Below are positions 33,849 through 49,384 of a stretch of DNA of 64,000 nt, piece by piece; position 1 is the stretch's first letter; each line of letters opens with the position of its first letter. The stretch is from Candidatus Altimarinota bacterium (GTDB taxonomy: Bacteria > Patescibacteriota > Minisyncoccia > Phycocordibacterales > UBA5272), in assembly GCA_021734745.1 (NCBI GenBank), contig JAIPIK010000002.1, positions 1 to 64,000 of the forward strand. Reading direction: 5' to 3'. The notes under the pieces were generated by a model. The model was not told where the DNA came from, searched no databases, and saw only the letters and a program-made list of their open reading frames with translations. Position numbers and translations under genes: made by a program.

Positions 33849-35594
33849 TTACCCTATTTGATCTAATTTTTTATCAATTTCCTTCTCAGTTATTTCAAGG
33901 CGTTTTTTAAATTTCTTTAGAATTGTTTGTTCTTCTTTTGTTAACTCTCTTTTCTTTTCAGCTTTTACAAGAAGAGTGTGGAATTCCTCTGTATCTCTTT
34001 TTAGCGCAGCTACGTTTGTTTTTAAGGTACTCTCCACTTCAGTTATTGTTCGTCGAACCTTTCTTCTAAATCGTGAGAACTGTACAAGAGAATACCAGAA
34101 CGTTCCCACAATTGTAATACTAACTAATATTAATATGAGTATGACTGAAAGCCAATTCATTACAAAAATACCAAGACGAACTAATGCTACGTGATCTACT
34201 ACTACAATTTTACTGTTAGTAAAGTCACTCACCGCACCTTTAGCATCTATTGCTCTTGCTCTTATTTCATACACCCCAGTGTCTATCTTTTTTGACCAAG
34301 TTAATCGAAATACACCTGTCTCATTTGAGACTACAGTTTCTGAAGTGCTGTCGCCGTTTCTATCTATCAACAAAACTTCAACGACAGCTTGTGGGTAAGT
34401 TGTACCAGAAACTTTAAGCTGATTTTCGAAGTCTACATTTTTTGTATACTCTGTAATAATTGGAACTGCTATTGCTTGTATTGTATATTCAAGTGTTACA
34501 GTACTAATATTACCCGCCATATCCACTGAGCTTATCTTTACTGAATGTTTACCAGATGCCTGTTTTGGTAAATGATAGATATTTGATGGTTCTATTTGAT
34601 ATTTCGTTTCTTCCCCACTATCAATACTCATTATGATATGACTTAATCCTGAAAGTTTATCTTCAGCTAAGATAAGAACTGATGGTGTTTGATTAGTCGT
34701 AACCACTCCATCTGGGAATGAAGCACTCAAGGACTCTGGAGCTCCTGTGTCAATTTGAAACTTATAATGTGCGACATCTCCCCAAGTACTGCCGTTCTTA
34801 AACTGAACGTGCATATACATTATTCCATCTTCATCTGTTGTAAAAGAGCGATTTGTTACAGGAGGATCATACACCTTTGAAGGTATTGATGTCTCTTTAC
34901 TGCTGTATAGGGTGCGCACCGCAGACACATTTGATGGTACAGCCCATTCAAATGAAATATCGCGAGATGAATACCATTTTGTGCTATCAGGGTGTGTTGA
35001 TGACGTTATAACTGGCAAAGATCCATTAGTTGGCTTAACTATGGCTTCAACTACTGGTGTAGGAGTCGCCACTGCTTCATCAATAACAACAAAAGCTCCT
35101 GCGGTTGTCCCAAGTACATTAGTTGCATTACCATCATTTGCTAATACTGATCCTGATTTTACAAGAATATTCACATTACCAGCCTGTTTTGCTTTAAAAG
35201 TAATAGTGACGACTTTTCCTGTTGCACCACTAAAACCAGGGTTAAGTGTTACCCCCTCAAATGAAGCAGTTCCATTAGAATTTGAAAAGAATGGCTCCTC
35301 TGCCCATAGATTAATAAATGATCCTGCTTTTGAAATTGAGGACACTGATAAAACATCAGCTGGAAAACTAACTAATGAAGAAACTGCATTAATAGGGTCT
35401 TTATTCCCACTAACCAAAACATCAACAGTGAACGTTTTACCAACTTTTGTAGAAATATTTAATGGTGACAGTATAATATTCGCAGCAAAAATTGTATTTA
35501 TTCCTGCAAGAAAAACAAGTACAAAAATACTTGTACGAACATTACTTAAGTTTCGTGCGGCGTTTCGAGAAAATGTACAAAAGGTTTTTACCAT
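33849..35594 (-). CDS. Cohesin-domain membrane protein with Ig-like domains
   Basis: A 581-residue surface protein. Signal peptide to about residue 37; cohesin-like domain about 38-172 (ILSPLNISTKVGKTFTVDVL, FPADVLSVSSISKAGSF, GTASFEGVTLNPGFSG, KVVTITFKAKQAGNVNI). After a Pro-rich linker come domains about 190-285, 290-375 and 380-470 of Ig-like type. A C-terminal helix (about 478-503) and a charged coiled coil of about 75 residues on the other side of the membrane follow. Cohesin modules bind dockerins, and the dockerin protein is encoded two genes upstream in the same operon. The cytosolic coiled coil could report or organise binding. It overlaps the previous gene by 53 bases. Confidence 0.8.
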   Translation of the reverse strand: MVKTFCTFSRNAARNLSNVRTSIFVLVFLAGINTIFAANIILSPLNISTKVGKTFTVDVLVSGNKDPINAVSSLVSFPADVLSVSSISKAGSFINLWAEEPFFSNSNGTASFEGVTLNPGFSGATGKVVTITFKAKQAGNVNILVKSGSVLANDGNATNVLGTTAGAFVVIDEAVATPTPVVEAIVKPTNGSLPVITSSTHPDSTKWYSSRDISFEWAVPSNVSAVRTLYSSKETSIPSKVYDPPVTNRSFTTDEDGIMYMHVQFKNGSTWGDVAHYKFQIDTGAPESLSASFPDGVVTTNQTPSVLILAEDKLSGLSHIIMSIDSGEETKYQIEPSNIYHLPKQASGKHSVKISSVDMAGNISTVTLEYTIQAIAVPIITEYTKNVDFENQLKVSGTTYPQAVVEVLLIDRNGDSTSETVVSNETGVFRLTWSKKIDTGVYEIRARAIDAKGAVSDFTNSKIVVVDHVALVRLGIFVMNWLSVILILILVSITIVGTFWYSLVQFSRFRRKVRRTITEVESTLKTNVAALKRDTEEFHTLLVKAEKKRELTKEEQTILKKFKKRLEITEKEIDKKLDQIG

Positions 35595-36507
35595 AAAAAT
35601 ATAACAAGGAAATTGCTACAAGTATATATACTAGTATACGTGATTGTCGCAAGAATGGTTGAGAGTTTTCAACAGGTTGTATAGTTATGAATGTATACGT
35701 GTTATTCGTATACACAATTTTTGCGTGAACGTATTTTGTGCGCGCAGTATGTGTAAGCATTTGTGGGTTTAAAGCTTTACGCCACACAAATGACGAAATA
35801 TAGCTAGGGTTGTATTCTCCACTTTCTGCAATTTCTATATAATCAATAGTTCGCGAAGGGTCCTCATCGTGTATATACACGTAAGGAGCTCCATCATTAA
35901 CGAGTTCATTACTACTAATAGTCATGCTCACTGTTTTGTTGTCTGTGATTCTTAACTCAGAACTCCTTATTACCTCTTTTCCAGTTAAGGATGGAACATG
36001 TATAGAACTTTTACTATCCTTGCTTGGTAATAGTGTTCCTACGCTATCATATGCGTGCAACTCAATATTATTAAGTATAAAATCCCCAACTCCTTCTCCT
36101 TTTGGAATAAGGACAACTGTAAACACAATTCCTGGAAAGACTCCTTTGTAATACGGATTATGAACCCCACTATATCCACCAGGAATTATTCCTTCAAAAA
36201 TAATGTGCGTTCTTTGATCAAATGACTTTTCTTCTGAAATTTTTGGTTGCATTATCCATAATGGAACAATACCATTTTGTGTTGAAATGATTTTTACATC
36301 AAATAGTTCAGATGGGAAAGAAAAATCTCCAGCTAATCCACTTATCCTATCTGACTCATTGTCTAGAAAAATACTAAGAGCTAAAGGTTCTCTATTAGAC
36401 GAAGCACTGTGCGGGGCACTAATATACATATATGCTGCGTTTGCATGTACTAATGTTAGTACTGAGACAAATAAGGCTATATAGATTTTTTTTGTAAAAG
36501 TTTTCAT
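35542..36507 (-). CDS. Second cohesin-like membrane protein
   Basis: A 321-residue protein with a signal peptide (MKTFTKKIYIALFVSVLTLV). A cohesin-like beta domain lies about 25-150: APHSASSNREPLALSIFLDN, GDFSFPSELFDVKIISTQNG, IIFEGIIPGGYSG, GIVFTVVLIPKG. It parallels the downstream cohesin protein strand for strand (VPLWIMQPK here against INLWAEEPF there). A second beta domain and one C-terminal helix (about 294-310) with a short basic tail follow. The start is the ATG at 36507, 4 nt after the dockerin gene stop; the longer frame overlaps that gene. It should display one cohesin on the cell surface. Confidence 0.7.
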   Translation of the reverse strand: MKTFTKKIYIALFVSVLTLVHANAAYMYISAPHSASSNREPLALSIFLDNESDRISGLAGDFSFPSELFDVKIISTQNGIVPLWIMQPKISEEKSFDQRTHIIFEGIIPGGYSGVHNPYYKGVFPGIVFTVVLIPKGEGVGDFILNNIELHAYDSVGTLLPSKDSKSSIHVPSLTGKEVIRSSELRITDNKTVSMTISSNELVNDGAPYVYIHDEDPSRTIDYIEIAESGEYNPSYISSFVWRKALNPQMLTHTARTKYVHAKIVYTNNTYTFITIQPVENSQPFLRQSRILVYILVAISLLYFYGKNLLYIFSKRRTKLK

Positions 36508-36511
36508 ATAA

Positions 36512-37438
36512 TTATCCAGTCCAACAATAAGCAAGAATACTTAAATCTGTAAGATTAATTCTTCCATCACTGTTTAAATCAACTCTAATCGGAAAACCTA
36601 ATCTCTTATACCAAAATGCCATAATACTAAAATCAAGTAAGTTAACTCTTCCATCATTATTCAAATCACAACGAGCATTAACAAGTGTTCCTCCACTCTT
36701 ACGAATTTTATTACTTGTCCCAACAGTGAACGAAATTGGTTCAGAATACAAAGTAAACTCAACCCCTACCTTTGCTCTGGATTTTGCAGTATATTCAGCA
36801 TAATCTAGAGATTGTGTATTGTAAATATAGGACCATGAGCCAGACGCATCTGCGGTTACTATTCTACTTATTCCAGTTTTTGCAAATATGGTTAAATAAA
36901 CATCTGATCCTGGTATCGATTTACCTGAAAATACAATATTATCTCCTAGTTTTACCTCAACTTTATCTGTTGTTATTGTTGGAGGCATAATAATACCCTT
37001 TACTTCTGTTACAGCACCAGAAATTACAACTATTGTATACGTTAATTGAGATGACTTTAATCCACTACCATCCTTTGCTACAAGTGTAAAAGTGTACGTT
37101 CCTGGTCTAATATTTCGCACAGGAACTTCAAATGTACCGTCAATATTTACAGGTAACTCATTTAAAACTAATCCATTTTTAAGAATTGATATTGTACTCC
37201 CTGGATAAGATTTACCAAAGAAAACTGCACTATCTGTACCTGCCTCTATGGTTAATGGCACTCCATTATTAGTAATAATACTTGGTGCTGGCGGTGGTGT
37301 TGCTGGAGATACAGTATTACTAATAACTATAGCGTTAACATTTAAAGTCTCTGGGATACTAACTGTAATAGCATACACAAACTGATTTGAAACTAATACA
37401 AGGAGTACAAAGAATAATACAACCCTTGATAAATTCAT
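36512..37438 (-). CDS. Secreted dockerin protein with two Ig-like domains
   Basis: A 308-residue protein with a signal peptide (cleavage near VYAIT). Two Ig/FN3-like beta domains follow (about 50-135 with VFFGKSYPGSTISILKNG and 150-240 with IVFSGKSIPGSDVYLTIFAK). The C-terminus is a dockerin: two calcium loops DLNNDGRVNLLD and DLNSDGRINLTD, each followed by SIMAFWYK or SILAYCW. There is no membrane helix, so it needs a partner to stay on the cell. Two cohesin-like proteins are encoded immediately downstream. No catalytic module is present, so unlike cellulosomal dockerin proteins this one seems structural or adhesive. Confidence 0.85.
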   Translation of the reverse strand: MNLSRVVLFFVLLVLVSNQFVYAITVSIPETLNVNAIVISNTVSPATPPPAPSIITNNGVPLTIEAGTDSAVFFGKSYPGSTISILKNGLVLNELPVNIDGTFEVPVRNIRPGTYTFTLVAKDGSGLKSSQLTYTIVVISGAVTEVKGIIMPPTITTDKVEVKLGDNIVFSGKSIPGSDVYLTIFAKTGISRIVTADASGSWSYIYNTQSLDYAEYTAKSRAKVGVEFTLYSEPISFTVGTSNKIRKSGGTLVNARCDLNNDGRVNLLDFSIMAFWYKRLGFPIRVDLNSDGRINLTDLSILAYCWTG

Positions 37439-37446
37439 AGCGAAAT

Positions 37447-38427
37447 TTACTTCGCGTTAGCAAGTCTTGCTTGTGCGATAATAAACTTATTATAACGCTT
37501 GAATGCTGAACGAAGGCCGATGAATATAATTCCTGCAATAGCAATAAGAATAATGAGTAGATGCCAAGGAAGTACTACAAACCAAATTGTGTTACTTGAT
37601 GATTTAGTACCAAAATTAAGATCTAGATTAGCAAAATAAAGACCCATGGCGAAGTTTCGCATTTCGTATTTTACATGAGAAAAATATGACGCTGATGCTG
37701 GTAGAGGTTCCTCATCTCCCCAAGTTAATTCAAATCTTCTGATACTATTTGGTAGAACATTTCCTTCAGTCTTGTTCGCATTTATTTCTTTTGTTGTAAT
37801 CCAAAACATGTTCTTGATTGTTGTTGTACCTGATGGCTTTACACGATCATTCCCGTCATTGTTAAAACGGTATACAAAATCAATTGGAAGCTTTGTAACA
37901 AAACGACCGTTATCTTTTAAGAAAAATGACAACACTCCCCCTTCTTCTTTTATATCACCACTTACCTTAAGTAGCATTAGCATTCCTACTTTTGCACCAA
38001 CAGAAACCTCTCCGCCTTTGGTTGCTGGTGGAATAGTGCTTAAGAATATAGCAGCAAAATGACCTCCTGCGTCTGCATCTTGTGGAATAGTAACAGTAAA
38101 TGGTATTTTAATTTTTTCACCACTTTTAACTGTTACCTTCTCAGCAACTTGCACCCATGAAGCAAAACCTTCTTTTGTGTTAGAAAAATTAGGGGTTCCT
38201 GATTCTCCTTGAGCCTCAAAATTCTCAACAGACGTATAGTATGTTTGCTCAGAACTTTGTTCATTTATGATTGTAAACTCATTTGTTGCGGTTGCTCCTG
38301 GGTCAGCAGATAACTCCAATCTAGCTGGAGAAATAGTAAGTGCATTAGCAACAAATAGAGTTGAGGCTAACATACAGGCTAGAGAAACTCTCTTTATATA
38401 TGTCATTTCTGTGATGGTTTTTTTCAT
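37447..38427 (-). CDS. DUF916-like surface protein with C-terminal membrane helix
   Basis: A 326-residue protein: signal peptide to about residue 30, then LTISPARLELSADPGATATN and FTIINEQSSEQTYYTSVE. GEKIKIPFTVTIPQDADAGG followed by AAIFLSTIPP comes next, and a helix (about 288-308) with a basic tail ends the protein. The 'i.P...el.v.pG.t.....i.N' opening and 'i.vP.dA.pG.h.a.i' middle are those of DUF916-type proteins, which in Gram-positives pair with WxL wall proteins. It heads the operon with dockerin and cohesin genes, so it may anchor or dock the complex. GTTATA on the plus strand (38437-38442; TATAAC on the minus) is a weak -10 box 9 nt before the ATG. Confidence 0.72.
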   Translation of the reverse strand: MKKTITEMTYIKRVSLACMLASTLFVANALTISPARLELSADPGATATNEFTIINEQSSEQTYYTSVENFEAQGESGTPNFSNTKEGFASWVQVAEKVTVKSGEKIKIPFTVTIPQDADAGGHFAAIFLSTIPPATKGGEVSVGAKVGMLMLLKVSGDIKEEGGVLSFFLKDNGRFVTKLPIDFVYRFNNDGNDRVKPSGTTTIKNMFWITTKEINANKTEGNVLPNSIRRFELTWGDEEPLPASASYFSHVKYEMRNFAMGLYFANLDLNFGTKSSSNTIWFVVLPWHLLIILIAIAGIIFIGLRSAFKRYNKFIIAQARLANAK

Positions 38428-38480: not shown

Positions 38481-39548
38481 CTAGAAGTTAGCTGTGCCAA
38501 CATAAATTAGGTTAGCGCTATATGTTCCAGCTTCTGTTAACCCTGCGATATTAGCAATGTAATGGAGAGAATATGTCTCTGCGTTCGTAGATGATGAACC
38601 AGATGCAAATGTCGCAGATGTAGTAGCAGTAGCATCATATCCAAATGAAGATGCAGTAGCATAAGGTGTAGCAATTGTTCCATTTATACCACCTGCTTTT
38701 GTTGCATAAATACCAAACTGCTCAGTTCCCGCAGAAGAGGTAGCAGGTGTGCCACCAATAGCTGAAATTGTATCTGCTGGATTCTGCTGTGAGGTGAGAG
38801 TTTGACCTTTAACTGTAATTGCATACCCTGATGGTGCATTTGTTGATACATCAAGTGTGTGAGCTACTGTATCTACTGTGTCACCCAATGTGTTTGTACT
38901 AGACGCATATTTTGGAGCACCTGAACCTAAGTTACCGAAGTTAATTGAGTTTGAAGAGATAGAAAATGTAAGAGATTGAGGCACTATAGCGTTTACTTGT
39001 ACAGTGTCATCATTTAGAATTGTAACCGTTGTGGTTCCATTATCTGTCATTGTTCCACCAACAGCTACTGTTTTACTACCTGATGTTGTAGTGTTCCTTA
39101 TAGCATTTACACCAGTTGATTGGAAAATAGCATTTGTACCAATTCTAATATAGACAGTATCTCCTGGATTAATAATTGTAGAAGAAGCTGAAGTAATTGT
39201 AAGAGTTGTAGATGAGGTTCTTACCACTCCAAGCTCAGTTGCACTAGGTGCTGCTGCAAGTGTTGTGGAACCTACATATGGACCACCTACGTTAATGTCC
39301 ACATCAGTAAACGTAAGTCCAATCTCCATCTCGAAATCAGACTCGAACTCAATAACTGTAGTAGAACCATTACCAAGGCCAGTTGGTGTAGTAAAAACTA
39401 TTGTATGATTAGAAACAGTTGAAATCTTAGCTGTAGAAAGTGTATCTGACATACCAGATAGCGATGCAGCAAAAACAGTTGTGAAGCCGAGCGATGACAT
39501 AAGCGCTCCTGCCACAACCTTAAGAAACAATGAATTTTTATTTATCAT
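38481..39548 (-). CDS. Secreted two-domain surface protein, paralogue A
   Basis: One of three tandem paralogues (355 residues). Signal peptide to about residue 28. An N-terminal beta domain (about 30-180) carries HTIVFTTPTGLGNGSTTVIE and TFTDVDINVGGPYVGS. A C-terminal module (about 185-355) starts VNAIVPQSLTFSISSNSINF, then KYASSTNTLGDTVDTVAHTL, GYAITVKGQTLTSQQNPADT, GTEQFGIYATK, and ends TEAGTYSANLIYVGTANF. The same C-terminal module ends three other proteins here. No membrane helix or LPXTG is present, so it may bind the surface non-covalently. The layout resembles WxL proteins, but the W-x-L motif itself is absent. Confidence 0.7.
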   Translation of the reverse strand: MINKNSLFLKVVAGALMSSLGFTTVFAASLSGMSDTLSTAKISTVSNHTIVFTTPTGLGNGSTTVIEFESDFEMEIGLTFTDVDINVGGPYVGSTTLAAAPSATELGVVRTSSTTLTITSASSTIINPGDTVYIRIGTNAIFQSTGVNAIRNTTTSGSKTVAVGGTMTDNGTTTVTILNDDTVQVNAIVPQSLTFSISSNSINFGNLGSGAPKYASSTNTLGDTVDTVAHTLDVSTNAPSGYAITVKGQTLTSQQNPADTISAIGGTPATSSAGTEQFGIYATKAGGINGTIATPYATASSFGYDATATTSATFASGSSSTNAETYSLHYIANIAGLTEAGTYSANLIYVGTANF

Positions 39549-39739
39549 AAATTAGTAGTTATTTTTATATAAACTATCTCTCCAAATAGTATTACTATAC
39601 AGTATAGAAGAATTTTTTTAACAATGTAAGTAGATTACTAAGAAACATGGGGATAAATAAGCATTTTTGTTTTATGCGGGATTTATATACTTAAAATAAA
39701 CTTAATGCACATTCGACATATAAATCACTTTTAACTGGT

Positions 39740-40807
39740 TTAAAAGTTAGCAGTACCGACATATACCAAATTCGCACTATATGTTCCCGCCTCTGTTAAT
39801 ATTGCAATGTTTGCTAAATAGTGAAGTGAGTACGTTTCTGTGTTAGTAGGAGTTGATCCAGATGCAAACAAAGCAGATGTAGTAGCTGTTCCATTATATC
39901 CAAATGATGAAGCTGTCACATAAGGTGCTGTAATTGTTCCATTTACACCACCTGATTTCGTTGCATAAATACCAAATTGCTCAGTTCCTGCAGAAGAAGT
40001 AGCTGGGATGGCTCCAATTGCAGAAATAGTATCATTTGCATTTTGTTGTGAAGTTAGAGTTTGACCTTGAACTGTAATAGAATACCCCGCAGTAGCATTT
40101 GTAGATACACTAAGTGTATGCGCCACAGTATCCACGGTATCTCCTGATTCATTTGTACTGGACGCGTATTTTGCAGAACCAGAATCTAGATTACCAAATG
40201 CGATAGCATTTGAGGAAATTGAAAAGGTTAAAGCTTGCAAAACAACAGCTGAAATTTGAACTGTATCATTATTAATTATATTAACTGTTGTTGTGCCGTT
40301 ATCAGACATATTTCCCGCAATTCCAATTGATTTACTCCCTGTTGTAGTAGCGTTTATTACCTGAAATGAGCCAGTTGACTGAGAGATAGCATTTGTTCCT
40401 AATCTAATATAGACAGTACTTGCTGGAGCAACAGCACCTGAACCATTTGTAATAGTAAGTGTCGTACTTGAAGTTCTTGCAACCCCCCAAGTCGCACCAG
40501 ATGGTGCGGCGGCAAGTGTGGCTGATGCATTATATGGACCTCCAACGTTAATATCCACATCCGCAAAAGTAAATCCTGTTGGAATTTCAAATTCAGAAGG
40601 AAAAGCAATAATTGTGGTTGATCCTGCACCTATTCCAGTTGGTGTTGTGAACTGAAATGAGTGATTTGAAGCAGTGCTCACCTTTGCAGAAGACATAGTA
40701 TCTGACATACCCGTAAGTGCGGCTGAAAATGCTATTTCAACACCTAAAACAGAGATAAGTACTCCTGCAATAATTTTACTAATTATTTTATACTTACTAT
40801 TTACCAT
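39740..40807 (-). CDS. Secreted two-domain surface protein, paralogue B
   Basis: The second of three paralogues (355 residues), very similar to its neighbours in both domains: signal peptide to about 30, HSFQFTTPTGIGAGSTTIIA, FTFADVDINVGGPYN, then the C-terminal module with VLQALTFSISSNAIAFGNLD and the end TEAGTYSANLVYVGTANF. I place the start at the ATG at 40807; the longer frame begins with a TTG. Two spacers of 190 and 157 bases separate it from paralogues A and C. Neither contains a clear terminator, so co-transcription is possible. Function unknown; an abundant structural or adhesive coat protein is one option. Confidence 0.7.
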   Translation of the reverse strand: MVNSKYKIISKIIAGVLISVLGVEIAFSAALTGMSDTMSSAKVSTASNHSFQFTTPTGIGAGSTTIIAFPSEFEIPTGFTFADVDINVGGPYNASATLAAAPSGATWGVARTSSTTLTITNGSGAVAPASTVYIRLGTNAISQSTGSFQVINATTTGSKSIGIAGNMSDNGTTTVNIINNDTVQISAVVLQALTFSISSNAIAFGNLDSGSAKYASSTNESGDTVDTVAHTLSVSTNATAGYSITVQGQTLTSQQNANDTISAIGAIPATSSAGTEQFGIYATKSGGVNGTITAPYVTASSFGYNGTATTSALFASGSTPTNTETYSLHYLANIAILTEAGTYSANLVYVGTANF

Positions 40808-40964
40808 AAATGTCAATTGGTTAGTCCCAGAGTTATGTCCATAATATTAAGTATATGATACATACATCAAATTGGTAACCAATAACTGTTAATAACAACA
40901 AAAAATTACTAAATATAACTCCTGAATGCAGCCATTCTGTATACCAAACTATTTAAATTAGACT

Positions 40965-42029
40965 CTAAAAATTAGCAGTACCTACGTAAATTAACCCAGC
41001 AGAATAACTGCCTGCTTCTGTAAGTGAAGAAATGTTTGCTAGATAATGAAGTGAGTATACTGTTGTATCACTAGATGTTGAGCCAGAGGCAAATAATGAT
41101 GATGTTGTGGCTGTCGATTCAAAACCAAACGATGAAGCTGTAGCATATGGTGCTGCAATTATTCCATTTAATCCACCTGATTTTGTAGCGTAAATTCCAA
41201 ACTGCTCTGTACCTGTCGCTGAAACTGCTGGAGATGATCCTATTGCTGAAATCGTATCAACTGCATTTTGTTGTGAAGTTAAAGTTTGTCCACGTAAAGT
41301 AATTGCATAACCAGAAGAAGAGTTAGAAGATACTGTCAGTGTGTGAGCAGTGGTATCTAAATTATCCCCTTGAACATTTGTACTGGACGCATATTTTGCT
41401 GTAAGAGAAGAAAGATTACCGAAATCAATACTATTTGTTGAAATAGAAAATGTAAAAGACTGCGGCACAATTGCATTAACTTGAACATTGTCATCTGATA
41501 ATAAATTAACTGTTGTTGTTCCTGTATCTCCAAATGACCCCGTAATACCAATACCTCCATTACCTATAGACGAATCGTTTGTGACTTGAAATGTTCCCAC
41601 AGCGTCATGTATTGCATTTGTACCTATTCTAATATAAAGTGCACTACTACTTGCAACCACTGAGTTTCCATTTGTAATAGTCAAAACATTTGCTGATGTC
41701 CTAACAACTCCCCAAGTTGCCCCAGATGGTGCTGCAGCAAGTGTAGATGACCCTACATATGGACCTCCAACATTTATATCAACATCAGCGAAAGTTAGTC
41801 CAGCTGGTATTGAAAAAGCACCAGGAAATGTAATGACAATATCTGTTCCGGATGCGACTCCAGAAGGAGTTACAAAAGAAAAACTATGATTTGATAGAGC
41901 ATTTATTTTAACAGACGACATTGAGTCAGAAAGAGACGACAACACCCCTGCGGAAACTGTTGCAATAGATAGAGAAGACATTAGTGCTACAACTGCAACT
42001 TTAAATGCAATATTTTTTATTTTTTTCAT
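40965..42029 (-). CDS. Secreted two-domain surface protein, paralogue C
   Basis: The third paralogue (354 residues). Signal peptide (MKKIKNIAFKVAVVALMSSL) with a cleavage site near residue 27; N-terminal domain with HSFSFVTPSGVASGTDIVIT and LTFADVDINVGGPYVGS; C-terminal module with TAKYASSTNVQGDNLDTTAH and the end TEAGSYSAGLIYVGTANF. It is the most divergent of the three at the very C-terminus. Upstream, TATAAT (42057-42062, minus) lies about 30 nt before the ATG, so unlike many genes here it has a short leader, still without a ribosome binding site. Confidence 0.7.
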   Translation of the reverse strand: MKKIKNIAFKVAVVALMSSLSIATVSAGVLSSLSDSMSSVKINALSNHSFSFVTPSGVASGTDIVITFPGAFSIPAGLTFADVDINVGGPYVGSSTLAAAPSGATWGVVRTSANVLTITNGNSVVASSSALYIRIGTNAIHDAVGTFQVTNDSSIGNGGIGITGSFGDTGTTTVNLLSDDNVQVNAIVPQSFTFSISTNSIDFGNLSSLTAKYASSTNVQGDNLDTTAHTLTVSSNSSSGYAITLRGQTLTSQQNAVDTISAIGSSPAVSATGTEQFGIYATKSGGLNGIIAAPYATASSFGFESTATTSSLFASGSTSSDTTVYSLHYLANISSLTEAGSYSAGLIYVGTANF

Positions 42030-42174
42030 AATTAAAAAAGTACAGGAATTACTTGTATTATAAGTATATTGCTTACACGCAAAAAATACAGCCTTAAAAG
42101 TGGATAACTAAGGTTTTTTTATAAATTACTATTGACGTCTTTTTTAACCGCACTGTAGTTTAAACACTTTCTAG

Positions 42175-45100
42175 TTAAAAATTGGCAGTTGCAATATAAA
42201 CCAAATTTGCGGAATATTCTCCCGGTAAGGTTAAATCTGTTATATTTGCAACATATCTTACTGAATAATCAGTTTGTTCATCGTCTCCAAGTGTTGCATA
42301 TGCAACCTGGGTTGATGTAGTGGCTGTTGATGAATAAGCAAATCCACTACCTGTATATGGCGCAGCAACTATTCCGACTCCCCCTGTTGCAACCGCTCTT
42401 AACCCGAACTGTTTTGTCCCGACAGCTGAAGCGGTATTCGATCCTCCGATTGCATCTATAACATTTCCACCAGAATTAAGAGTGTTACCTTGCACACTTA
42501 CTGTATAACCCATAAGAGCATTTGTGGTGACAGAAATTGTATGCGCCACTGTTTCGACGGTGTCACCCTCTGGATTTGTGCTGGAGGCATATTTTGTACT
42601 TATTGCTGACAGCTCTCCAAGATATATTGAATTTGAGGAAATATCAAATGAAATATATTGAGGAGGGTCTAGATTGTCCTCTTCTCTCCACCCAACAAGA
42701 AATCTATACTCAACATTTGTATCACCTGTTGCGTTTTGCTGATAAAAAGCAATCCCTTCTCCAGGTTTTAACACAAGTTCATCTCCAACGATAATTTCTC
42801 TTTCTGCTTCTCCAAAAATTTGACCAGGCGCACCTGGAATAGTAACATCCAAAAATTGCGCATCCACACCACCGATGAACGATACAGATGGACCAGCAGT
42901 TCTTAACTCCACACTAGAATCTAGCGTGTCTTGATGTTTTTTGGGAATATTAGATGCCGTCATCAGTGTTCCACCTGAGGCTGAAGATATTTTTCTTATT
43001 GTAGCTGTTGTATAATCAGGAGCTGAAGCACTCCCAGTTCTTTCTGCGCGTATCGCAATTCTTTTTATTAAATATCTTTTTCCAGTTGGGCCCGGTGTAG
43101 TGTTATTAAAAAATGAAGAATACACATACCCAGCTGTTGTTGATTGTGTTATTGGTCCAATTCCAATAATATGCTCCTGTTGAGATGCTGGTGTACTGGC
43201 TGTTGCGACCTCTTCCCATTCAACAAGTAACTTTACTCTTAAATCCACATCTCCTGCTGATGTATCATGATAAAGTCCTATTCCTTCCCCTTCTTTTAAG
43301 ATAACTTTTTCATTATTCTCAAAATTAATTTCATAGTACCCCACATTTCCTGAATCTCTTGCAGCAGTTTCTGCTGGAGTTATTACTGACATAAGTTTAG
43401 AATCAGTCCCACCGACATATGTTGCCGCTACACCTGTGCGCCGTATCTGCATAACACTGTTTGATGTGCTTGTGTTTTTCTTAGGAATATTTGCAGCTGC
43501 AATCAAAGTCCCTCCGGAAGCTGCCGTAAGTCGTCTTAATTGCATTGGTATATAAGAAGCTGTGTTAATTGTGTCGACTCTAATACTTAATCTTTTTATC
43601 ACAGCAGCTTTACCTGACCCTGTTGGATTCAAAAAGGTGGCATAATTATAACTAGTTGCAGTGCTACCGTTTACAGGACCAATATCAATAAGATATTCAC
43701 CTGCTGCTGCTGGAGCACTTGTTTCCTCATCCCATTCTATTAATATTTTTACATATGCATCAACATCTGCAGTTAAAACATCATTATAAAATCCAATTCC
43801 TTCTCCCTCTTTCAAAATAATTTTCTCTGCACTACCAAAAACAATCTCTCTTATCCCAGTCAAATTACCAACTACTCCAGGAGCATTCACTGTCATAAGT
43901 CTTGAATCTGCTGTACCTATATATGTTGCAGAAACTGTTGTTGCACATGTTGCGCCACACCATCTAGTTTGCATAACACTATTGGATGTCCCTGTATGTT
44001 TTTTGGGTAAATCTGATGCTGTAACTAACAACCCACCAGAGGCTGCTGATAGTCTTCTAAAATTCCATGCTGGGTAATTAGCATTAGCATCAGCATTGAT
44101 TCTTATCGCTAAACGTTTTATCACTGCAACTTTACCAGAACCAGATGGATTATAAAATGTGTATCTTGTCGTATTTGCTGCTGATGCTCTTGTAGTTGTT
44201 TGTGATGCCCAAATATACTCACCCTGAGATGCGGGTGTACTCGCGGTATTAATCTCTTGCCACTCTATAGCCATTCTAACCAGTTGATCCACGTCACCTC
44301 CTCCACCTGATATAAGTGCTATACCTTCATTATTCTGCAAAATTATTTTTTCATCATTATTGTGTAAGTTTATTTCTTGCAAACCACCAGGTTGGGCAAT
44401 TGACCCACAAGGTGTCACATGACCCAGACGTGCATCTGATCCACCAACTTCAGTAACTGACACATTCGTATGTCTAAAGTCCATAACACTAGTTGCTCCA
44501 CCAGTATTCTTTTTGGGTATATCACTAGCTGCAATTGCAGTGCCACCTGAGGCTGCTGATATTCTTTTTATATATATATCGTTTGAATAAGAAGCGTTAC
44601 CGTCACATGTTTCAGTACCGAACCATATACGCTTAATAACAGCGGTCTTACCTGATGCAGACGGATTAAAAAAAGAATTATAAACATAATTAGCCCCAGC
44701 TGTAGTCTCTATTCTTGGAAAAGTGAACAGGAATTCATTTTGAATAGTTGGAGCCTTCGCCATTTCTTGCCAAGCAACATACACTCTATTTCTTGCATCC
44801 TGATCCCCTGCATCCTCTTGATACACAGCCAACCCCTCGCCTGGGGCAATCACGAACTGCTCATCATTTATTCCAAATGTAATTTCTCTGAAACTATAAT
44901 ATGAACCAACTGCTCCAGGATTCGGTTGACCCAAAACTCTGGAATCAACAGACCCTGCAAATGTAACAGCTGGCCCGACTTGTCTCACTTCAACAATAGA
45001 ATCAACAGTTCCATTATTTTTCTTAGGTATATCTGTCGTTGCAATTAAATTACCACCTGAAGCTGCGGTTATCCTTCTTAAAGTTAAGTTTCCATACTTT

Positions 45101-45477
45101 GCTCCAGTGTTGTTACCAGTTACAGGACGAACAGTAAAGTTCTTCATAACTATATCTCTACCTGATCCTACTGGATTGAAAAACGACATATAAACATAAT
45201 TCGCGGCTGTTGAGCCAATTGTTGGACCAATATGTATCATATATTCACGTTCAATTGGATTAACAGCCGCTTCGGCCCTTCTTATTCCTCCCAAAAAATT
45301 ATCGACTACATTTTTATTTTGTTTTGCAAGATAGATTTTATCAACAATTATTTTACCTTCACTGTAACTTACCACGTCCTTTAAAAAATAAAATAACTCG
45401 CTCGGATTAAACCCAGAAAAAAATATTACCATTATAAGAATCAAAGATGATGTTTTTTTAATTAGATTGTGCAACAT
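42175..45477 (-). CDS. Large repeat surface protein ending in the shared C-terminal module
   Basis: A 1100-residue secreted protein. A hydrophobic signal segment (LIKKTSSLILIMVIFFSG) leads to five repeats of about 155 residues. Each opens like EYMIHIGPTIGSTAANYVYM, runs through SGKAAVIKRLSIR, then ASGGTLIAAANIPKK, and closes with LKEGEGIGLYHDTSAGDVD followed by LLVEWEE. The last 170 residues are the same module as in paralogues A to C (ISFDISSNSIYLGELSAIST ... LPGEYSANLVYIATANF). So the module is a mobile C-terminal domain placed behind different stalks, as expected of a surface-attachment domain. The start at 45477 (MLHNLIKK) overlaps the hydrolase gene by 20 bases. Confidence 0.75.
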   Translation of the reverse strand: MLHNLIKKTSSLILIMVIFFSGFNPSELFYFLKDVVSYSEGKIIVDKIYLAKQNKNVVDNFLGGIRRAEAAVNPIEREYMIHIGPTIGSTAANYVYMSFFNPVGSGRDIVMKNFTVRPVTGNNTGAKYGNLTLRRITAASGGNLIATTDIPKKNNGTVDSIVEVRQVGPAVTFAGSVDSRVLGQPNPGAVGSYYSFREITFGINDEQFVIAPGEGLAVYQEDAGDQDARNRVYVAWQEMAKAPTIQNEFLFTFPRIETTAGANYVYNSFFNPSASGKTAVIKRIWFGTETCDGNASYSNDIYIKRISAASGGTAIAASDIPKKNTGGATSVMDFRHTNVSVTEVGGSDARLGHVTPCGSIAQPGGLQEINLHNNDEKIILQNNEGIALISGGGGDVDQLVRMAIEWQEINTASTPASQGEYIWASQTTTRASAANTTRYTFYNPSGSGKVAVIKRLAIRINADANANYPAWNFRRLSAASGGLLVTASDLPKKHTGTSNSVMQTRWCGATCATTVSATYIGTADSRLMTVNAPGVVGNLTGIREIVFGSAEKIILKEGEGIGFYNDVLTADVDAYVKILIEWDEETSAPAAAGEYLIDIGPVNGSTATSYNYATFLNPTGSGKAAVIKRLSIRVDTINTASYIPMQLRRLTAASGGTLIAAANIPKKNTSTSNSVMQIRRTGVAATYVGGTDSKLMSVITPAETAARDSGNVGYYEINFENNEKVILKEGEGIGLYHDTSAGDVDLRVKLLVEWEEVATASTPASQQEHIIGIGPITQSTTAGYVYSSFFNNTTPGPTGKRYLIKRIAIRAERTGSASAPDYTTATIRKISSASGGTLMTASNIPKKHQDTLDSSVELRTAGPSVSFIGGVDAQFLDVTIPGAPGQIFGEAEREIIVGDELVLKPGEGIAFYQQNATGDTNVEYRFLVGWREEDNLDPPQYISFDISSNSIYLGELSAISTKYASSTNPEGDTVETVAHTISVTTNALMGYTVSVQGNTLNSGGNVIDAIGGSNTASAVGTKQFGLRAVATGGVGIVAAPYTGSGFAYSSTATTSTQVAYATLGDDEQTDYSVRYVANITDLTLPGEYSANLVYIATANF

Positions 45478-46474
45478 AGCTATATATTTCTCTAGAAATT
45501 TCTTCAAAGAGATTATCAATTTCTTCCTGATCAAAATTACCAACTTTACTTTGTTCTATCATAACTGTTATCAGATATGGACGGCCAGGCACATAGACTA
45601 TTCCAGAATCAGCCTTCACTCTCTCACTAATTCTAACACCAGTCTTGTGCACATAAGTAATACCAGATGGCAGACCTGTGCTAATTAATTCTTTTGGAGA
45701 TTCTGCTAAAATATTTAAAAACATTTGAGAATATTCAGGAGAAAGATATGTCGCATTATAGAGTGATCTAAAAAAAGTTGTATACTTTTTGGCTGTTATT
45801 CTATTGTCATCATACTGTCCATCGTTTGGAGACTGCTTAAGTTTATCTATTTCATCATCAAACCCTAGACGCGTATACACATCCTCAAGCTCGACGCTAT
45901 CTAGGTTACGCAACAACACAAAGTGTGCTGTATTATCTGAATTAATTAATGTCTCTTCTAATAATTTCTTAATAGAAAAAGTGGTTCCTGACGATTTTTT
46001 GTATAGTTCTCCAAATTCGCTATCTTTGTCATCGTCAAGTATGACTAACTCATTATTCAATTTCCACTTTCTCTCTTCAATTTTTTTAAAAGCAGCCATG
46101 GCAATTGGTATTTTGATTAAACTCGCTGGCCACATTTTTACATCTTTGTTAATAGAAATATTAGACCCTGTAGGAATGTATTCAAAATATATAGAAATTA
46201 AATAATCATCATTTTTTTCATATTTTTGTACAAGAGAATTTCTTAATTCCTGAAAATTAATGAGTCTGTTATTTTTTTCTATTGATGATACTGTTGGGCT
46301 TAGCAAAAAATACTCTTTATTAGTAACGACATTATTCGTCTTAGATAAAAATAAAAAAATAATAACTAGTAATAAAATAACACATATCACTTGGTATTTC
46401 ATCTTCAAAACACCATCTATTATTTTAGGTTTAGTATTTCTGTTATTCCTTTTATCTAATGAATTATACTTCAT
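45458..46474 (-). CDS. Class A beta-lactamase-like serine hydrolase
   Basis: A 338-residue membrane-anchored protein with a helix near residues 25-45 and a complete class A serine active site: WPASLIKIPIAMAAF (S-x-x-K), INSDNTAHFVLL (S-D-N) and VHKTGVR (K-T-G). It fits the beta-lactamase2/serine-hydrolase family, whose members hydrolyse beta-lactams or act as D,D-carboxypeptidase-like or unknown hydrolases. The usual omega-loop E-x-x-L-N cannot be located with confidence, so lactamase activity is doubtful. It lies between two giant surface-protein genes, 3 nt from one stop and overlapping the next start, so a role in surface assembly is possible. The start could also be the internal ATG about 24 codons later. 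Confidence 0.8.
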   Translation of the reverse strand: MKYNSLDKRNNRNTKPKIIDGVLKMKYQVICVILLLVIIFLFLSKTNNVVTNKEYFLLSPTVSSIEKNNRLINFQELRNSLVQKYEKNDDYLISIYFEYIPTGSNISINKDVKMWPASLIKIPIAMAAFKKIEERKWKLNNELVILDDDKDSEFGELYKKSSGTTFSIKKLLEETLINSDNTAHFVLLRNLDSVELEDVYTRLGFDDEIDKLKQSPNDGQYDDNRITAKKYTTFFRSLYNATYLSPEYSQMFLNILAESPKELISTGLPSGITYVHKTGVRISERVKADSGIVYVPGRPYLITVMIEQSKVGNFDQEEIDNLFEEISREIYSYVAQSN

Positions 46475-46477
46475 AAA

Positions 46478-49384
46478 TTACTGAGTGATTGCACTACTAG
46501 TTGTTGATGTCTCTAATACCTCCTCTTTCTCTTCTAATATGTAATTTAACTCACTTAATTTTTCATCACTTAAGAATGCATCCAAATTAAGTTTTTTACG
46601 CAATGCGTCTAATGCATCAGAGTCCCCATCAGAAAAAACCTCCCCTGTTTCTGTACTATAAAATGTAAAACCTCTCGCACCAATAAGCACAGTCCACTGT
46701 GTACCCAAAAACTTCACTCTAGCTTTTTCTCCTTTTGAGATATCAAAAGGTGGAACAGGCATTTGATCAAGTGATTTATTTTTGAAATTGTACGCATAAA
46801 TAATCAAACCATCCTTTGCTAACCAAAATAAATGTTCACCCTTAATACCGAGCATAGAGCCTACAGACAAGGTAGTAGAAGCTGGTCCAATATTTATTTT
46901 TTCTTGCGTATTACTCTCTGTATCATATAACCAAAGTTCATCTTGGCCGTCCTTTTCTACTTGCATGACAACTTCACTCAAAAATACTCCTTTTATTTTT
47001 TTGATAATATACAAAGCAAAATCTGGAAGTTTCTTTTCTTCTTTTTCAACTTCTAAAACATCTTCTTCTAACACTTTATTAACTTTTTTTATTTCTTCAA
47101 CCAAAGTCGCTATTGATGTATTATCTTCACTCCACTCCACTTGAAGTTGAATCCATTTATTTTTTGGTAACACTACATTTGTTATTTTTTCACTGGTTGT
47201 TGCATTAAGTGTGGTGGTGGCAGTAGAAGTGCTATTAGTGGTAGATGCATTGCTCGAAGTACCTACAGTAATACTTATGTCTTTCACCAAGGTACTAGTG
47301 CTAATATTTACACTCTTTGTTGTCGTACTAATTTCTGTTGTAGTAGCAGTGACCAATGTTGTCGTACTAATTTCTGTACTTGTTCCAAGCTCCAAAGTAG
47401 ACGTTGAACTAGTTAAATCCGTCGATGAAGCAACCACGTCTGGAATAATTTCCTCGATATACATATACCAAACCTCTTTTTGGTTATTATCATTATTAAT
47501 TATTGTAACAATTCTAATATTATCCACTGTTTCATCGCTTATAATTGTATCCCTTTCAAAATCTGGGTGCTCGTGTGTAACAGTTGTTTCATAAAGCACT
47601 TCGGCTTTTATTCCGTCGAGATACACCGCTGGTGTTGGGTCTATTCTATCAACTGGCTGTACTTTTATTTGAAGTTGATTCATATCACTCCATGAAGTAG
47701 AAGCAACTACAGGTATTTCAAAAGTTCTATACTTCATTGAACTTTCGTCTACTTTACCTAAGCTGTTCCAAACCACTCCGTCGAATGTATACAAGACTTC
47801 GAGGAAGTCACCTTGTGATTCTTTTTCTTTATCAGCTCCTGTAATAATATCTAAAGCAGTATCTAATAATGTCTTTGTACTAGTCCCTTCAGTTGTTGAA
47901 GCGAACTCAGGATTTTCATCAATAGTTGAAGTAGAAACATTAGCGGAGCCTTCAGTTGACGATGATGTTAAGGCTGACGTCGACGACACCGCTGACGTTG
48001 TTGATGTTGAAACTGAATCTTTGCTTCGGGTTTCTGTAATATTTGTTTTGATAACTGTCTCTATAACCTTCTCATTGCTATTTTCAGTGACAACAATTTC
48101 CTCTTTAACGTCTATAACTTCTTGGACAACTTTTTCTTGTGTGACCATTGGTGTAGTTGTTGTTGTAATTAAAACTTCTTCTATTTTCACCTCTTGTGGA
48201 ACTACTACCTCGCTTTCTAATGCAGTGCCTGTAGCGCTAACCACTGTAGGAGTAGAAGATGCCCCATCTTCTGCGAAAACTTTTTGAATGAAATATGATG
48301 AGAGCTTTTCTAAAACTGAATCAAAAAAAGATACTGGGGCACTTTCAGGTTCTATCGGAGTAGTCTCAGCTGGAGGAGTCTGAGGTTCTTCTGTTGGAGG
48401 AGTAACAGTTGGTTCTGCTTGAGGTGGAGCTACTGGTTCAACCACTGGTTTGACAGTGGGTTCGATTGCAGTGTCCACCGATGTTGATGCTGACCCACCA
48501 ACAACTTCATCTGTTTCTGGTTTTTCTGTATCAGTTGCAGGAGAATTACTTTGTTGTGTTGTTGTAGAAACAACTGGAACACTTTCTCCTTTACCAAGGA
48601 TCTTTTCAAGAGCTCCACCAACAGCATCTATGACTTTACCGAACATAGAAGATTCTTTGGTTGTAGTTGCACCTGCTGTTGTAGATTCTTTTACAATAAC
48701 TTCTGACGATGTCGATGAGGAAGTCGACGTAGAGACAGTTGTAGATGCTGAAACTGATGTTGAAGTTGAAGAAGAAGCACTAACAAAAGATGATGCATTG
48801 ATTATGTCGGTACTACTAGCTAATGTGAATGACACTTCTTCGGTTGATGTGCTATCTAATATTTCTCCTGAAGACGAAGCAAAAGAATCACTAATAATTT
48901 CTTGCCCCAAAACAACATCTTCTCCTTTACTCCAAGCTAATGAAATAAGTATCTTTGTTGGTTTAGTGTTTTGTTCAATTTCACCAACAAAACCTCCACA
49001 ATAAATATCTGCATGTGTTCCACTTGGGAGTACGGCTGAGTTATCTTTTGTAAATTCACTTTCAGAACTGTTTGATTTTGTTTGTGGCTCACCTTCTGCA
49101 TTACGAGGATTATTCCAACCACCAAGACAGGCTGTTGGATAAAATGTTACTACCTCTGCACTTCCTTTTGGTGAAAGGATGGACCCGATTACCATGAGAA
49201 AAAGTGTTAAGATAACCACAACCTTTATTCTCTTCTTCATGAGTATAATCCCTGACTCTCTTTCATTAGAAAAAATGAGGTTCTCTAGTGAATTTCTTAC
49301 ATTATCAATATGCGAACCAACGTTTAATTTTGGGCTATAAATTGATGACTTGAAGAATTTTTTTCTAGGTAAGATTTTGCCCAT
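46478..49384 (-). CDS. Large Ser/Thr-rich surface protein
   Basis: A 968-residue protein of unknown family. A long N-terminal segment precedes a helix (about 50-70, KKRIKVVVILTLFLMVIGSI). A small Cys-containing domain follows (PTACLGGWNNPRN, DIYCGGFVGE; about 80-155). Long Ser/Thr/Val and Pro/Glu linkers come next (about 160-520), then a beta domain with LEVLYTFDGVVWNSLGK and YLDGIKAEVLYE. A further Thr-rich linker ends in a propeller-like part (about 790-930, LWLYDTESNTQEKI, LFWLAKDGLIIYAY). The C-terminal GEVFSDGDSDALDALRKKL may bind calcium. The linkers look made for O-glycosylation and extension. The start may instead be the ATG at 49240, directly before the helix. TATACT lies 12 nt upstream of 49384. 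Confidence 0.7.
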   Translation of the reverse strand: MGKILPRKKFFKSSIYSPKLNVGSHIDNVRNSLENLIFSNERESGIILMKKRIKVVVILTLFLMVIGSILSPKGSAEVVTFYPTACLGGWNNPRNAEGEPQTKSNSSESEFTKDNSAVLPSGTHADIYCGGFVGEIEQNTKPTKILISLAWSKGEDVVLGQEIISDSFASSSGEILDSTSTEEVSFTLASSTDIINASSFVSASSSTSTSVSASTTVSTSTSSSTSSEVIVKESTTAGATTTKESSMFGKVIDAVGGALEKILGKGESVPVVSTTTQQSNSPATDTEKPETDEVVGGSASTSVDTAIEPTVKPVVEPVAPPQAEPTVTPPTEEPQTPPAETTPIEPESAPVSFFDSVLEKLSSYFIQKVFAEDGASSTPTVVSATGTALESEVVVPQEVKIEEVLITTTTTPMVTQEKVVQEVIDVKEEIVVTENSNEKVIETVIKTNITETRSKDSVSTSTTSAVSSTSALTSSSTEGSANVSTSTIDENPEFASTTEGTSTKTLLDTALDIITGADKEKESQGDFLEVLYTFDGVVWNSLGKVDESSMKYRTFEIPVVASTSWSDMNQLQIKVQPVDRIDPTPAVYLDGIKAEVLYETTVTHEHPDFERDTIISDETVDNIRIVTIINNDNNQKEVWYMYIEEIIPDVVASSTDLTSSTSTLELGTSTEISTTTLVTATTTEISTTTKSVNISTSTLVKDISITVGTSSNASTTNSTSTATTTLNATTSEKITNVVLPKNKWIQLQVEWSEDNTSIATLVEEIKKVNKVLEEDVLEVEKEEKKLPDFALYIIKKIKGVFLSEVVMQVEKDGQDELWLYDTESNTQEKINIGPASTTLSVGSMLGIKGEHLFWLAKDGLIIYAYNFKNKSLDQMPVPPFDISKGEKARVKFLGTQWTVLIGARGFTFYSTETGEVFSDGDSDALDALRKKLNLDAFLSDEKLSELNYILEEKEEVLETSTTSSAITQ

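Follow-up and report, generated by a model that had tools for sequence, protein, structure and literature searches.

Locus organization and module proteins

The window, meaning the whole 64,000-nucleotide stretch that was analysed, is contig 12 of a 960-kb (0.96-Mb) genome that is 97% complete and places among the CPR/Patescibacteria. Four genes for proteins with a shared C-terminal module lie on its minus strand. The first encodes a large putative tip protein (42175-45477), whose reading frame stays open to a TTG at 45543; the ORF listing gives 1122 aa from this TTG, or 1100 aa with the ATG at 45477 as the start. It is followed by the genes for pilin-like protein 1 (40965-42029, 354 aa), pilin-like protein 2 (39740-40816, 358 aa; ATG start probably at 40807) and pilin-like protein 3 (38481-39548, 355 aa), which lies closest to a WxLIP-like gene. 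Each of the three small proteins consists of a signal peptide, an N-domain, a putative donor-strand segment and a pilin-type module. A preliminary description had proposed four surface proteins, three tandem paralogues and one five-repeat protein, ending in a common domain of ~170 residues; this was borne out by the ORFs, the repeats, the signal-like N-termini and a full-length alignment.

The modules occupy 38484-39008 in protein 3 (copy 1), 39743-40267 in protein 2, 40968-41492 in protein 1 (the latter two located by alignment and HMM match) and 42178-42684 in the large protein, all on the minus strand. Over the full ~170 residues, the modules of the paralogues are 74-80% identical to each other and 51-52% identical to that of the large protein, and the landmarks SLTFSISSNSI, KYASSTN, VAHTL, GTxQFGx and Y(V/I)xTANF are all present in the aligned copies. 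Module HMM E-values ranged from 1e-83 to 5e-96, and these four copies are the genome total.

The regions in front of the module had been described as differing, which held for the large protein with its five tandem repeats of ~170 aa (42676-45249, minus strand; residues 99-268, 269-440, 441-614, 615-788 and 789-956), repeats 2-5 being 34-43% identical to the first. It did not hold among the three paralogues, which have a homologous N-terminal domain of ~150 aa (39009-39464 in protein 3, minus strand). Pfam and PDB sequence searches gave neither a family nor a credible solved relative for this N-domain or for the five repeats. Chance matches only were obtained in a Pfam search of the module proteins and in a PDB sequence search with the module profile.

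Family membership and distribution

All four copies exceeded the curated 55-bit cut-off (64.0-77.4 bits; 70 bits for protein 3 and 72-77 bits for the large protein) of model NF058581 in NCBIfam release 20 (June 2026), named CPR_Pam_pilin_C, 'Pam pilus system pilin subunit'. The alignment covers the model up to position 148/148 and the protein up to its final residue. On these profile scores, the module is the C-terminal domain of an already-named CPR pilin family and the locus is a variant in make-up. As far as could be found, the name is itself a prediction, and a literature search returned no paper describing Pam pili.

The window shares with the CPR Pam pilus the C-terminal domain over the cut-off, tandem pilin genes and a WxLIP-like gene beside them. 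It differs in its first gene, which encodes a five-repeat protein of 1100 aa in place of a PamT of ~240 aa, and in having dockerin and cohesin-like proteins and no recognisable PamR. The PamT model (NF058579) gave 33-35 bits in the window operon against a cut-off of 240, and the PamR model (NF058578, RbmA-like) had no match among the scanned neighbouring proteins, a dockerin protein standing in its place. A saccharibacterial-type locus (L085) has the order PamT, pilin, pilin, WxLIP-like, PamR, and its WxLIP-like gene carries no NCBIfam name. NF058580 was considered as a further Pam gene and rejected as a lipase.

A profile built from 18 members was run against 380 Patescibacteria from across the phylum and detected the module in 79. 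With NF058581, matches at E<=0.001 were obtained in 103/380, of which 27 exceeded the cut-off of the model, and in 0/14 control genomes. Close relatives in named records came from Paceibacterota, Nomura-, Staskawicz-, Harrison-, Magasanik-, Peri-, Peregrini- and Saccharibacteria. The module reached the stop codon in fully read loci, with a few exceptions ending 1-6 residues short, and 105/108 module proteins had a signal-like N-terminus, the ORFs of the remaining three being possibly cut or mis-started. A predominance of matches at N-termini or in cytosolic proteins, which the preliminary description had named as evidence against a surface module, was therefore not seen. Its interpretation is supported in that the domain is C-terminal, belongs to exported proteins, is common across CPR and is accompanied by a WxLIP (DUF916) gene. 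CPR-type module loci were also found in two MAGs labelled Polynucleobacter and Bacteroidia (L097 and L111), which are probably mis-binned CPR contigs.

The WxLIP-like partner

The neighbouring gene (37447-38427, minus strand) encodes a WxLIP-like (DUF916/DUF3324-like) protein with a C-terminal membrane helix, proposed here as chaperone and membrane base. The DUF916 resemblance noted earlier proved real, with a PF06030 (WxLIP_PGBD) match of 20-21 bits (E 7e-4) that lies below the Pfam cut-off of 27.3. The structural model comprises a signal peptide, two Ig-like beta domains (strands 35-285) and a helix (288-325). Its top PDB matches were the E. faecium WxLIP entries 9i1y and 9i25 (Foldseek E 4e-11, Z 13.6), both released in 2026 and the latter a solved WxLIP-WxL complex; next came the fimbrial chaperones CfaA and CsuC (E 2e-9 to 5e-9) and RbmA. 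A PDB sequence search with the WxLIP-like profile found just two entries, both WxLIP (E 0.18). Profile comparison by hhalign gave E 2.5e-5 over 230 columns against Firmicute WxLIP and E 4e-20 against actinobacterial DUF916 proteins, which in turn matched WxLIP at 5e-9.

The WxLIP-like gene lies directly downstream of the last module gene in 27/27 loci from named records and beside module genes in 26 of the 27 genomes of a second set, the exception being a contig end; the two sets have 7 contigs in common. These data bear on a rival account, in which the module is an ordinary Ig-like domain that has spread through duplication and has no shared role in assembly. Three of the four copies are indeed recent tandem paralogues, and Ig-like folds are common on bacterial surfaces. 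Such an account sits so poorly with conservation to the last residues across the phylum, an invariably C-terminal position and the constant presence of one partner gene that we give it hardly any credence.

The WxLIP-like protein contains an alternating-hydrophobic hairpin strand, EVSVGAKVGMLMLLKVSG (37957-38010, minus strand), preceded by a loop of lower pLDDT (~72); the strand, EVSVGAKVGMLMLLKV, is conserved among relatives. PapD donates its G1 strand from the corresponding place. By analogy, the hairpin strand would sit at the position from which PapD donates and at which WxLIP inserts into WxL. The insertion of a WxLIP strand into WxL is an AlphaFold prediction (PMC10599100).

A putative donor strand and a proposed distinction of tip from pilin

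Ahead of the module, each small protein carries a putative donor strand on the minus strand: VQVNAIVP in protein 3 (38979-39002), unpaired in the AlphaFold model, VQISAVVL in protein 2 (40238-40261) and VQVNAIVP in protein 1 (41463-41486). The motif can be written V-x-[VIL]-x-[AGST]-x-V and is followed by the first module strand. The large protein lacks it and has EEDNLDPP in its place.

In operons with at least two module genes, the motif (chance rate 2.2% per 14-mer) was present in 28/28 later genes and in 1/22 first genes, that one being cut by a contig end. The Fisher value of p=3e-13 is descriptive only, since the pattern had been noticed by inspection of these alignments before it was counted on the same operons, and kinship among the operons limits their independence. 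Under a stricter motif, the strand was absent from all 12 module proteins of at least 450 aa. Inspection by eye of L085 showed that its PamT lacks the strand and that the neighbouring pilins have it. Two relatives of 191 and 193 aa, encoded at L102:4920-5495 and L102:5734-6315, consist of a signal peptide, the strand and the module and nothing more, which is the layout of classical pilins. The pattern is as would be expected, at the level of sequence, of pilins and a tip adhesin, and each operon opens with a single strandless protein, either long or with a different front part, which suggests a tip. No record was found of either this tip/pilin signature or the WxLIP link. Together with the variant make-up of the locus, the WxLIP/PapD-like partner and the signature are what is added here to the known family.

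Fold of the module

The AlphaFold model of module copy 1 had a pLDDT of 95.1 and a pTM of 0.88. The best Foldseek matches in the PDB were CfaB, the PapG pilin domain, CS17, FimF and Csu (probability up to 1.00), and nearly all of the first dozen were chaperone-usher pilins, with E-values of 1e-3 to 3e-2. VIA-align placed TLP-1 subunits on top (Z 8.7 and 8.4), followed by CfaE, Csu, FimG, FimH and PapA at Z 6-7, with TasA (Z 5.9) and archaeal pili at about 6. These matches are moderate, with no Foldseek E below 0.001, TM of ~0.4 and Z mostly 6-7, and Ig-like domains are often alike; the comparison draws its weight from how consistent the list is. A viral structure library yielded nothing under E 0.001.

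With chaperone-usher pili (CFA/I, P, type 1, Csu) the locus has in common the pilin-like fold of the module, the PapD-like fold of the partner and a strandless tip-type subunit. It differs from them in its membrane-anchored partner, in the absence of sequence similarity and in the position of the donor strand, between two domains in most subunits. An outer-membrane usher would not be anticipated where there is no outer membrane.

Among the best VIA matches are TLP-1, TasA and filaments of archaea. The module might alternatively build a strand-complemented fibre of a matrix or surface layer, which would form a sheath around the cell and would not be a tipped adhesive pilus. TasA-like filaments (TasA/TapA, TLP-1) also assemble by strand complementation, and TasA, too, is reported to use a strand-complementing chaperone (PMC10151520). 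In sequence, however, no match to these filaments was found, and the window differs in having a separate tip-like subunit, there being one first protein without the strand per operon, and a PapD/WxLIP-like partner with a membrane helix. A sheathing fibre of this kind is accordingly judged quite improbable.

Relationship to WxL domains

The genes resemble the WxL/WxLIP (csc) clusters of Lactobacillales, in which large and small proteins with the same C-terminal domain likewise accompany a partner made up of DUF916, DUF3324 and a membrane helix. Within the window, the module proteins have no W-x-L motif, no LP-x-TG sortase signal and no membrane helix after the module, as the preliminary description had stated. 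Further differences from those clusters are that no Pfam WxL match was obtained and no LPxTG protein was seen, that the small proteins have an extra N-domain, and that profile comparison of the domains gave no significant match.

The module might nevertheless be a divergent, W-less WxL domain that docks monomers on peptidoglycan and WxLIP without polymerising. The order of large protein, small proteins and WxLIP is that of WxL clusters (PMC10599100, PMC9772566), and the WxLIP partner is homologous. Module profiles were compared with WxL sets of four kinds (small, large, combined and actinobacterial); 16 CPR-locus families, one of them the module family, served as a yardstick. A low-confidence alignment of module and WxL was obtained in register from FG to the end, placing GYxI and LxY on the two W-x-L motifs with a spacing of 107 residues (about 106 in small WxL), and its score of 23.7 compares with at most 18.1 for the 15 unrelated families. 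The hhalign probability was nonetheless 1-6% and never significant, and PF13731 gave nothing at E<=10 in 16 genomes, this one included. That the WxL chain 9i25_A is missing from the 50 fold matches listed for the module carries no weight against a relationship. There are no tryptophans at the motif positions, position 62 being Tyr in 55/55 alignment rows and position 169 Tyr or Phe in 55/55. Docking of monomers also leaves unexplained why the strand is missing from the first operon product alone and why three near-identical copies stand in tandem, and we regard it as unlikely.

A common origin of module and WxL is a separate question. Actinobacterial proteins encoded next to DUF916 genes are related to WxL (92.5%, E 5e-7) and start, once past the signal peptide, with V-x-V-x-V-x-I. 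Since the alignment is in register, outranks the 15 other families and is accompanied by actinobacterial relatives that lack the second tryptophan, a common origin is plausible from the sequences. Those of ~210 aa in L035 (7245-7871), L036 (7061-7705) and L126 have kept the first tryptophan and lost the second, and PF13731 missed both L035 and L036. In canonical WxL clusters of Lactococcus (L034:14652-15368, Q-x-L) and Listeria innocua (L044:8650-11115, F-x-V) the first tryptophan is lost, so that the W-x-L motif is not absolute even there.

Assembly of the proposed pilus

The NF058581 name, the pilin-like fold and a strand that sorts pilins from tips together point to polymerisation by donor-strand exchange. 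We consider it probable that the module joins one subunit to the next in a donor-strand pilus of NCBIfam's CPR 'Pam' type. The locus is read as encoding a large tip protein with five repeats, three pilins and, bound to the membrane, a WxLIP/PapD-like protein that would act as chaperone or base. On the same evidence, the earlier view of the module as chiefly an anchoring or sorting tag was not sustained: if the module polymerises, attachment would be provided at the base of the fibre, by the WxLIP-like protein with its membrane anchor.

The pilus reading would entail strand exchange, a filament with a tip and a membrane base, and host binding. Tip and pilins would be exported via Sec, each as a separate protein, and the incomplete Ig-like fold of the module would first receive its missing strand from the WxLIP-like protein, which would work from its membrane anchor in the manner of PapD. 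The V-x-V-x-A-x-V strand of the next pilin would then displace the WxLIP-like strand, and the fibre would grow from the membrane. The five-repeat product of the first gene, having a groove and no donor strand, could be placed at the far end only, like FimH, and the last pilin would remain plugged into the WxLIP-like protein, anchoring the fibre to the cell. Against this scheme counts the position of the strand in the window pilins, which lies between two domains and not at a free N-terminus and is unusual for donor-strand exchange.

The pilus reading points to a specific fibre for CPR host attachment, whose tip, pilins and membrane base would probably all be encoded by one operon, and the presence or absence of the strand would serve as a sequence signature to tell tip from shaft in uncultured genomes. 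More tentatively, and with the chances somewhat against it, Pam pili, Firmicute WxL/WxLIP clusters and actinobacterial DUF916 loci may be one ancient system, a monoderm counterpart of chaperone-usher pili. Its PapD-like member, WxLIP, would be anchored in the membrane and would pass strand-complemented subunits on to a fibre. The WxL domain, on that view, would be a pilin domain able to polymerise, beyond its role as a peptidoglycan-binding tag. The comparison suggests that the WxLIP proteins of enterococci and lactobacilli are PapD-type chaperones.

Neighbouring genes

Downstream of the WxLIP-like gene, in the place of PamR, lies a gene for a secreted Ig-like protein with a C-terminal type I dockerin (36512-37438, minus strand; PF00404, E 9e-8), which is conserved in relatives. 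Two cohesin-like proteins follow on the same strand, both kept in the operon and both with a C-terminal membrane helix (35542-36534 and 33849-35594), the second with an additional Big_13 domain. Their four best PDB sequence matches were cohesins, at weak E-values of 0.02-0.18. In several relatives the genes for the dockerin protein and the two cohesin-like proteins stay together beside the pilin genes. This arrangement suggests that CPR cells have a small cohesin-dockerin tether on their surface, by which the cohesin-like proteins may hold accessory proteins to the cell.

Upstream of the gene for the large protein, and slightly overlapping it, lies a gene for a class A beta-lactamase-like serine hydrolase (45458-46474; PF13354, E 3e-41), which is kept in two relatives (L025 and L026) and could have peptidoglycan as its target. 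The adjoining 46478-49384 encodes a Ser/Thr-rich protein of 968 aa with no recognised family, kept beside the operon in one relative of the same genus (L025).
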